From an uncultured Bacteroidales bacterium (GTDB taxonomy: Bacteria > Bacteroidota > Bacteroidia > Bacteroidales > Paludibacteraceae): a DNA stretch of 36,054 nt. The stretch spans positions 1 through 36,054 of the forward strand of contig CACYKR010000013.1 in assembly GCA_902774995.1 (NCBI GenBank). Direction: 5' to 3'. The notes below the pieces were generated by a model. It was given only the letters and a program-made list of their open reading frames with translations. It was not told where the DNA came from and did no database searches. Positions 24,239 to 26,233 of the stretch are shown here, in pieces. Every line of letters starts with the position of its first letter. Position 1 is the first letter of the stretch. A program made the translations under genes and the position numbers.

Positions 24239-24274
24239 AAAAAATGGCATACAAATTTGCGTATGTCATTTTTT
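24239..24274 (+). terminator. hpf terminator overlapping the metK promoter
   Basis: A 14-bp stem forms between AAAAAATGGCATAC (24239-24252) and GTATGTCATTTTTT (24261-24274), with one G-U pair and an 8-base loop, and runs into a U tract. The 3' arm and loop are at the same time the -33 element of the metK promoter (TTTGCGTATGTC from 24256). Confidence 0.8.
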
Positions 24275-24287
24275 TTGTGTACCTTTG
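24256..24287 (+). promoter_or_regulatory. metK promoter
   Basis: TTTG (24256-24259), a 20-base spacer and TACCTTTG (24280-24287). The extended box is TTTGCGTATGTC. The predicted start near 24294 leaves a leader of about 117 nt that contains the riboswitch. Confidence 0.87.
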
Positions 24288-24295
24288 CACCCGAT

Positions 24296-24388
24296 TTCGA
24301 TCAGAGGACGGATTTGACTGCTTGCAACCTCGTTAAAACAATGCTAAAACTTGTGCCACAAGCTTAAACAGTCGCTTGTGGATTTTTT
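24296..24388 (+). promoter_or_regulatory. SAM-II-like riboswitch with terminator in the metK leader
   Basis: The leader matches the SAM-II core as I recall it: a GAGG/CCUC stem (24304-24307 with 24328-24331) enclosing GGAUUUGACUGCUUGCAA, then AAUGCUAAA (24341-24348). The loop UGACUG (24315-24320) can pair with CAGUCG (24369-24374) as the pseudoknot. The long connecting loop carries a hairpin CUUGU-GCC-ACAAG (24350-24362), which suggests the long-loop variant. CCACAAGC (24356-24363) and GCUUGUGG (24374-24381) form an 8-bp stem followed by AUUUUUU, a probable intrinsic terminator that competes with that hairpin. Placement before metK, which makes SAM, supports feedback control. Confidence 0.78.
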
Positions 24389-24410
24389 GTAACAGAGGAT
24401 TATTGAGAAT

Positions 24411-25694
24411 ATGAATTATCTTTTTACCATCGAATCGGTGTCCGAGGGACACCCCGACAAGGTGAGCGACCAGATTTCGGACGCTATCCTGGATAACATG
24501 TTAGCGCAGGACCCGCATGCACACGTAGCCTGCGAGACGATGTGTACCACCGGCCAGGTGGTCATTGCCGGCGAGGTGAGTTGCAACGGATGGGTGGATG
24601 TACAGCAGATTGCCCGCAAGACCATCGCCGAGATAGGATACACCAAAGCGGAATACAAGTTCGAAGCAGAGAGTTGCGGTATTCTGACCGCTCTGCATGC
24701 GCAGAGCCAAGACATCAATATGGGTGTGAGCCGCGCTACGGAGGACGAGCAAGGCGCCGGCGACCAGGGAATGATGTTCGGCTACGCCACCGACGAGACG
24801 GACAACTTCATGCCCCTGACGCTGGATCTGGCACACACCTTAGTCTATACGCTTGCGCGCATCCGCAAGGAAGGCAAACAGATGACGTACCTCCGTCCGG
24901 ACAGCAAATCGCAGGTGACAATCGAATATGACGAGCAGAACCGCCCCGTCCGTATTGACACGATTGTACTCTCCACGCAACATGACGAATATATACAAGG
25001 GTACCAAACACCATGCACCAAGGTGACGCCGGAGCTGATCAAACAGGATGTGATTGATATTCTGCTGCCGAGGGTAGCTACCAGGGACAGCCGTTACGGC
25101 CATCTGCTACACGCCTTTTTGGAGGACAAGAACGCCAAACTGCTGGTGAACCCGACGGGCAACTTCGTCATCGGCGGTCCTCACGGCGACACGGGTCTGA
25201 CAGGTCGCAAGATCATCGTAGATACCTACGGTGGCCGCGGCGCTCACGGCGGCGGCGCATTCTCAGGCAAGGATCCCTCCAAGGTGGACCGTTCAGCCGC
25301 GTATGCCGCCCGATGGATTGCCAAACATCTGGTAGCCGCCGGTGTGGCGCATGAGGCGCTGGTACAAGTCAGTTACGCTATCGGCGTAGCCGAACCGGTG
25401 TCTGTTTACGTGAATACATACGGGACCGCACAAGTGCAGATGAATGATGCGGAGATCGCGCAAAAAGTTGCAAAGCTGTTCGATTTGCGCCCGGCTGCCA
25501 TTATTCGCGCCTTAAAACTCACCCAACCCATATACGAAGAGACCGCCAAATACGGTCATGTAGGACGCACCAACGAAGTGGTCACAAAGACCTTTTTTGA
25601 CTCGGAGGGCAAGACTTTCACCCGCGAGGTGGAACTCTTCACGTGGGAGAAACTGGACCGTTTGGCTGAAGTAAAAGCCGCTTTCGGATTATGA
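24411..25694 (+). CDS. metK: S-adenosylmethionine synthetase
   Basis: A 427-residue methionine adenosyltransferase, making SAM from methionine and ATP. Motifs include [18 protein letters not shown] (ATP-binding His14, Asp16 and Lys17), [12 protein letters not shown], and the C-terminal [20 protein letters not shown] and [16 protein letters not shown], the phosphate-binding part. Lengths around 420-430 are usual in Bacteroidetes. The leader carries a SAM-II-like riboswitch, so expression is probably lowered by SAM. The stop overlaps the lspA start by 4 bases (ATGA), so lspA and the DUF4296 gene likely share this transcript. Confidence 0.96.
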
Positions 25695-26233
25695 ACAGGA
25701 ACACGAAAATGAGTCTGATGGTGACGGCTATCGTACTGGTAGCCATCATCATTGACCAGATTATCAAACTCTCTGTTGCATCGCATTTCGCGATTGGCGA
25801 GAGCCGCGAGGTGACTTCTTGGTTCTGGTTGTGCTATGTGGAGAACAACGGCATGGCGTTCGGCATCGAGTGGTTCTCCAAACTGGCACTGACGATTTTC
25901 CGCCTTCTCGCCGTAGGGCTATTAGGATGGTACACTCACACGCTGATCCGCAAACCTGAGACGCCGACCGGATATATCGCTTCAATAGCATTTATCATTG
26001 CCGGCGCACTGGGAAACATAATAGACTGTGTGTTTTACGGCAAGCTGTTCGGTTACGCCGGATGGTTCTACGGGAGAGTGATCGACATGTTCTATTTCCC
26101 GCTGATTCGCAACAGCGCGGGCGAGGTGCTATTCTTCCGTCCGGTGTTCAATTTTGCGGACAGCTGCATCACTTGTGCCGTGGCTGTGATTCTGCTTTTC
26201 TATCTCAAACAACTCAATACCGATGAGAAATAG
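25691..26233 (+). CDS. lspA: lipoprotein signal peptidase (signal peptidase II)
   Basis: A 180-residue integral membrane aspartyl protease that cleaves prolipoproteins before the lipidated Cys. The two catalytic Asp residues are Asp112 in GNIID and Asp157 in FNFAD. Four membrane segments are visible (about residues 8-25, 65-82, 95-112, 156-172). The long loop between the Asp motifs, containing [10 protein letters not shown], is typical of Bacteroidetes. It is coupled to metK by a 4-base overlap and overlaps the next gene by 11 bases. That neighbour is itself a lipoprotein, a likely substrate. Confidence 0.94.

Follow-up and report, generated by a model that had tools for sequence, protein, structure and literature searches.

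The leader of metK in an uncultured Bacteroidales bacterium is reasonably likely to be a SAM-II long-loop riboswitch that represses the gene by transcription termination, with the 3' strand of its helix P2a placed in the loop of the terminator. We identified this candidate arrangement in a single stretch of 36,054 nucleotides (here, the window). When SAM is plentiful, metK would probably be shut off through pairing between the loop of P1 (L1) and the terminator loop, which is an unusual route. The wiring is not peculiar to one genome, as 70 of 129 loci in the host genus have the terminator-loop form. A broader proposal, about which we are more hesitant, is that the aptamer loop and the terminator's own loop may form a ligand-stabilized kissing helix that drives termination. 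The same proposal holds that the aptamer may have been rewired repeatedly within the genus among three designs (this one, an antiterminator in which L1 pairs with the 5' arm, and a cover over the start codon), with the designs that use a terminator occurring in leaders with a promoter of their own.

Layout of the metK leader

The aptamer core (GAUUU...UUGCAA...AAUGCUAAA) and the P1 stem are present, as expected of a SAM-II long-loop RNA, and a terminator lies between the aptamer and metK, as expected of a riboswitch of the termination type (Table 1). The leader is preceded by TTTG and TAnnTTTG motifs, which we take to be a Bacteroidetes-type promoter. Since this promoter ends at position 24287, the leader would start almost at P1. 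We also take GCUAAA to be the P2b partner of the UUGC core strand, on the basis of the SAM-II structure and of PMC6061858.

The first-pass annotation of the window had named a SAM-II-like (long-loop) riboswitch ahead of metK and had recommended a covariance-model search. When that search was run, RF01726 matched above its gathering score. The annotation had also placed CAGUC in the loop of an 8-bp terminator followed by U6, and had described an alternative hairpin that uses the 5' arm of the terminator; both can be read directly in the sequence. Of the 6-bp pseudoknot that it proposed (UGACUG/CAGUCG), five pairs stand, but the sixth (U24315.G24374) is a wobble that uses the base closing the terminator. 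Its view that binding, antitermination, and termination share the same bases holds in part. The terminator 5' arm is common to terminator and antiterminator, and CAGUC is common to the aptamer contact and the terminator loop, but the SAM-binding core and the small hairpin have no base in common.

Two general-purpose predictions did not pick out these structures. The minimum-energy fold of the leader, from a model that leaves out pseudoknots, was no better than that of shuffled sequences (z = -0.31). A consensus terminator scan did not list the terminator because it accepts loops of 3 to 8 nt, and the loop here is 10 nt.

Table 1 Features of the metK leader, in window numbering
Feature	Position	Strand	Details
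Bacteroidetes-type promoter (presumed)	24256-24287	+	TTTG 24256-24259; TACCTTTG 24280-24287
SAM-II long-loop aptamer	24298-24357	+	RF01726, 59.3 bits, cutoff 44, E = 4.1e-9
P1 hairpin with loop L1	24304-24331	+	GAGG 24304-24307 / CCUC 24328-24331
L1 strand GACUG, putative P2a 5' strand	24316-24320	+	Complement of CAGUC in the terminator loop
UUGC core strand	24322-24325		Read as P2b partner of GCUAAA 24343-24348
GCUAAA core strand	24343-24348	+	Read as P2b partner of UUGC 24322-24325
Candidate antiterminator hairpin CUUGU/ACAAG	24350-24362	+	5 bp; CUUGU 24350-24354, ACAAG 24358-24362; P = 0.025 versus shuffles (leader L030)
Intrinsic terminator	24356-24388	+	8-bp stem, 10-nt loop, A, U6; -11.0 kcal/mol
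Terminator parts			5' arm CCACAAGC 24356-24363; loop UUAAACAGUC 24364-24373; 3' arm GCUUGUGG 24374-24381; one A; U6 24383-24388
CAGUC, putative P2a 3' strand	24369-24373	+	In the terminator loop; pairs with L1 GACUG
metK, methionine adenosyltransferase	24411-25694	+	TIGR01034, 512 bits, cutoff 309.4

Classes of leader in the host genus

To place this leader among its relatives, we surveyed the host genus. RF01726 matched in 127 of 178 genomes (129 loci) in a search with stricter filters, under which weak matches are lost, and among genomes many of which are incomplete. The 129 locus regions were classified by script, apart from two assignments made by hand (L042 to class D and L036 to class C). 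Leaders of classes A (70 loci) and B (10 loci) have a terminator; in class A its loop contains the L1 partner, and in class B its 5' arm contains an L1 complement. In class C (40 loci), the terminator is absent and metK starts 0 to 6 nt behind the GCUAAA of the aptamer; this distance was measured in 39 loci, while L036, which lacks a start, was placed by its resemblance to L025. Class D comprises 8 other leaders, and one further locus is cut by a contig end. In four class D leaders (L042, L160, L177, and L178), GCUAAA is followed directly by GUCCC or GACCC, which matches GGGAC or GGGUC in L1. In L044, L155, L161, L172, L175, and L188 to L193, the metK start codon stands directly behind GCUAAA, so that the aptamer touches it.

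A hairpin search blind to the loop motif, covering 128 loci, returned 80 hairpins, with the L1 partner in the loop of 68, in the 5' arm of 11, and in neither part of 1. It found no terminator in the 40 class C loci and no hairpin in one class A locus. GACUG occurred in L1 in every class A (70/70) and class B (10/10) leader and in 6 of 8 class D leaders, but in only 4 of 40 class C leaders; L1 thus drifts where the terminator is absent.

The upstream TAnnTTTG box was found in 64 of 70 class A, all 10 class B, 11 of 39 usable class C, and 3 of 8 class D leaders (background, 35 of 1,565 windows). Across 123 rows, terminator and box were both present in 71 and both absent in 32, with the box alone in 14 and the terminator alone in 6. 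Counted on independent pairs from starred branches of a metK tree, this link was not significant (6 pairs, median P = 0.25), nor was that between the terminator and GACUG in L1 (6 independent pairs, median P = 0.0625), and the relations among classes may partly reflect common ancestry. The tree itself was built from 300 columns and 124 of the 129 loci, and 23 of its 120 inner branches are starred; a rough count on it gives 23 changes among the four classes. The starred branches force at least six changes for class A, at least five for C, at least four for B, and at least two for D.

Among the 51 genomes of the genus without an RF01726 match, metK was sought in nine and found in eight (L353 to L360). 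None of these eight has GCUAA plus UUGCAA within 300 nt upstream of metK, which indicates that in these genomes the missing match is a real absence.

Conservation and covariation in terminator-loop leaders

Within class A, the terminator is maintained by compensation and the loop strand by conservation. A MAFFT alignment of 22 class A leaders left the terminator arms unaligned and therefore gave no pair count, and pairs were instead counted outward from the loop by script. In the 43 unique class A leaders, 355 of 359 cells were paired, compared with 6,164 of 12,592 (49%) when arms were swapped, and every position through the ninth had at least three pair types. The loop strand is nearly fixed (CAGUC in 37 unique leaders, CAGUU in 3, UAGUC in 2, and CAGCC in 1) while the 22 distinct arms around it differ. 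When class A loops were shuffled, CAGUC arose by chance in 551 of 86,000 (0.64%). With wobbles allowed, the contact between L1 and the loop strand has five of five pairs in 69 of 70 class A loci and four pairs in the other.

The position of the partner strand is also held. In all 70 class A loci it ends 0 to 1 nt before the 3' arm and begins 4 to 8 nt after the 5' arm, within script limits of 0 to 2 nt and 2 to 8 nt, respectively. The three bases before it are AAA in 65 loci and AAG in 5. For P1, the best 4-nt partner, chosen by script within 15 nt, pairs at four of four positions in 128 of the 129 genus loci, with several sequence forms. The antiterminator hairpin takes the form CUUGU/ACAAG but also ACGA/UCGU and CGUG/CACG; it exceeded shuffled sequences (P < 0.05) in 26 of the 43 unique leaders, and 2 had none.

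The first-pass annotation had looked to covariation among related leaders. P1 and the terminator do compensate, and the antiterminator does better than shuffles to the extent just given, but the putative kissing helix hardly varies in class A, where it is backed by conservation rather than covariation. As far as comparison of leader sequences can establish them, then, the predicted aptamer, the terminator, the retention of the L1 partner in its loop, the spacing, and, in most lineages, the antiterminator hairpin are all in place.

Partners of L1 outside the genus

Beyond the host genus, we collected 175 loci, mostly from among the best-scoring matches in 266 genomes of the order and 105 of the family. 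A terminator-like hairpin was present in 28 of them, and in none of the 175 did the L1 partner lie inside a terminator loop. We also searched a named genome collection with the class A pattern, which fixes the letters of L1 and the loop, so that analogues spelled differently would escape it. This search returned 47 stretches labeled Bacteroidales, Bacteroidia, or Paludibacteraceae, including one from Candidatus Colicola faecequi; many came from the ruminant gut.

Many leaders of other genera have a partner for L1 farther downstream. Among 174 usable loci, we looked for a 5-mer complement of each leader's own L1 segment 8 to 40 nt after GCUAAA. Such a complement was found in 18 of 70 loci of the family, against 8.3% with swapped L1, and in 55 of 104 loci outside the family, against 16.1%. 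The excess lay 25 to 40 nt after GCUAAA in the family and 15 to 25 nt after it outside. The pairs include GAUUGA/UCAAUC, GACUGA/UCAGUC, GAGUAG/CUACUC, and GAACUG/CAGUUC. A covarying L1 complement about 15 to 40 nt past GCUAAA can be seen in many leaders among L194 to L222, L253 to L312, and sister-genus L223 to L252 and L313 to L352, and it is absent from the Rfam RF01726 model as printed. The distal partner is not universal, since it is nearly absent in other genera for the common L1 forms GGCTGC (0/21), GATTGC (0/13), and GACTGC (1/14).

For other genera we also considered a helix in which the linker that follows P1 pairs with the segment past GCUAAA (79 of 174 with own sequences, 30% with swapped ones); it was dropped because both segments are A- or T-rich. 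In the sister-genus leaders L232, L233, and L236 to L238, the terminator 5' arm AAUCGCA complements the leader's own altered L1 (GAGCGAUU or GUGCGAUU), an arrangement that resembles class B.

A candidate mechanism and its alternatives

We read CAGUC as the 3' strand of P2a because a distal, covarying partner of L1 occurs elsewhere and because, in SAM-II and SAM-V structures, a further helix, P2a, lies outside the P2 helix that binds SAM, according to PMC6061858, where most SAM-II riboswitches are termed transcriptional. Under the proposed mechanism, P1 and the core would be the first parts to be made. As long as SAM is absent, an antiterminator would occupy the 5' arm of the terminator; this could be the CUUGU/ACAAG hairpin, a pairing of GCUUG in L1 with CAAGC in the arm, or both, and metK would be transcribed. 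With SAM, the core strands UUGC and GCUAAA would close on the ligand, after which GACUG in L1 would pair with the CAGUC of the newly made terminator loop. The resulting helix would stack on the adjoining terminator stem, the stem would nucleate and displace the antiterminator, and transcription would end at the U tract. Viewed as a structure, P2a would be continuous with the stem of the terminator, and the A-rich spacer would cross the helix. SAM binding, the stacking, the order of folding, and the OFF direction are what we infer from this arrangement.

Because the candidate antiterminator hairpin is weak (-2.5 kcal/mol versus -11.0 kcal/mol for the terminator), it could act only kinetically. 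The pairing of GCUUG with CAAGC, which is available in many but not all class A arms, reaches -5.5 kcal/mol as a bare duplex.

The first-pass annotation had left the direction of the switch undecided, and its interpretation is otherwise supported by our analysis. The P2a contact uses only GACUG and leaves UUGC and AUUU free, so the bound aptamer and the terminator could coexist, and SAM should therefore aid the terminator. Together, the spacing and the comparison of platforms would favor OFF over the other direction, and an OFF switch is what is expected for an enzyme that makes SAM.

An alternative that we consider possible but unlikely is that L1 itself is the antiterminator. Without SAM, GCUUG(C) would pair with CAAG(C) of the 5' arm; SAM would withdraw L1 and let the terminator form, and the loop contact would be secondary. 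This reading draws on class B, in which AAGCAG complements CUGCUU of L1 in 10 of 10 leaders (GCAGCC being part of the class definition), on those class A arms that contain CAAGC or GCAAG, which pair with L1 over 5 to 6 nt with the duplex energy given above, and on the sister genus, which has GCGAUU/AAUCGC. However, the class A arms of L012, L014, L026, L048, and L051 lack the pairing and the loop partner is still kept, and the held loop strand would go unexplained. For class B itself, the L1-arm pairing takes the UU of the core strand; SAM binding would free the arm, which would give an OFF switch by another route.

It is improbable that the contact between L1 and the loop belongs instead to the SAM-free state, with the loop acting as an anti-aptamer strand that excludes SAM binding. 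Of the 73 distal duplexes in other genera, 36 enter AUUU by at least 1 nt, as such a strand might, and 8 start later. But 29 begin right at the edge of AUUU, chance alone would be expected to give single extra pairs, and in class A the contact ends at that edge because the stem of the terminator comes next.

We give slightly less credence still to an ON switch, in which the bound aptamer would pair with CAGUC while the CUUGU/ACAAG hairpin is inserted between GCUAAA and CAGUC, so that the terminator 5' arm is sequestered and metK is on. Core and hairpin could coexist because they share no base, and the hairpin's advantage over shuffles in 26 of 43 unique leaders fits such a role. Yet this reading does not account for the constant position of CAGUC next to the 3' arm of the terminator, and activation by SAM of its own synthase would be physiologically odd. 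In addition, the class C leaders of this genus, whose start codon lies at the aptamer, imply an OFF switch. Finally, a constitutive attenuator that merely adjoins the aptamer, with the loop complement idle, is very unlikely: the terminator is stable alone (-11.0 kcal/mol), but its loop strand is complementary to L1 over 22 different arms and L1 drifts where the terminator is absent.

Relation to known riboswitches

SAM-II long loops (RF01726) are described from Bacteroidetes and marine samples in a table passage of PMC2864571, in which we found no statement of an association with metK. Our leader is like that family in its aptamer core, its P1, a score above the family cutoff, and a SAM-metabolism gene downstream. 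The Rfam model ends about 11 nt past GCUAAA and has no terminator, whereas here the L1 partner lies in a terminator loop. Proteobacterial SAM-II RNAs followed by terminators are already in print (PMC1273637 and PMC2258182). They likewise combine one stem and a pseudoknot with a subsequent intrinsic terminator and a proposed OFF direction, but their terminator lies between P2 and the gene, whereas the P2a strand here would lie inside the terminator loop. That terminator mechanism was called not experimentally established in 2007 (PMC2258182).

Two further parallels come from riboswitches for other ligands. In the corrinoid riboswitch of P. megaterium metE, an L5-L13 kissing loop promotes termination (PMC10653944). 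There too, the ligand brings an aptamer loop into kissing contact with a platform hairpin, which favors termination against an antiterminator. However, L13 caps a separate stem, P13, whereas the kissing loop here would be the terminator's own, and ligand and fold differ. In the HMP-PP (thiS) riboswitch, the aptamer is embedded in the terminator and the terminator loop is conserved (PMC6478431). The likeness is an unusually conserved terminator loop that forms part of a ligand-binding RNA; the difference is that nearly the whole HMP-PP aptamer sits in the terminator stem, the two are mutually exclusive, and the switch is ON. Embedding of that type is absent here, where the RF01726 core lies 5' of the terminator and only the L1 partner strand is in the loop.

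Our search of the openly accessible journal literature turned up no account of an aptamer that completes one of its helices with its own terminator's loop and thereby promotes termination. The aptamer is already known; the terminator-loop wiring appears to be new. The coupling of sensing to output would be legible in the sequence, as the last helix of the aptamer would form with the terminator loop. Moreover, a single genus supplies natural variants with the same aptamer in at least three kinds of leader, so that the bases responsible for coupling could be tested by swapping leader pieces in a reporter.

Neighboring features

Two further features of the window flank the leader and its gene. 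Between hpf and metK is a hairpin (24239-24276) with 14 bp, an 8-nt loop, and a T run (-14.0 kcal/mol), and the TTTG of the presumed metK promoter falls inside its loop. At the other end, metK is overlapped at its end by a lipoprotein signal peptidase gene (25691-26233), which scores 174.2 bits to NF011369, below the cutoff of 200, and may be controlled together with metK.
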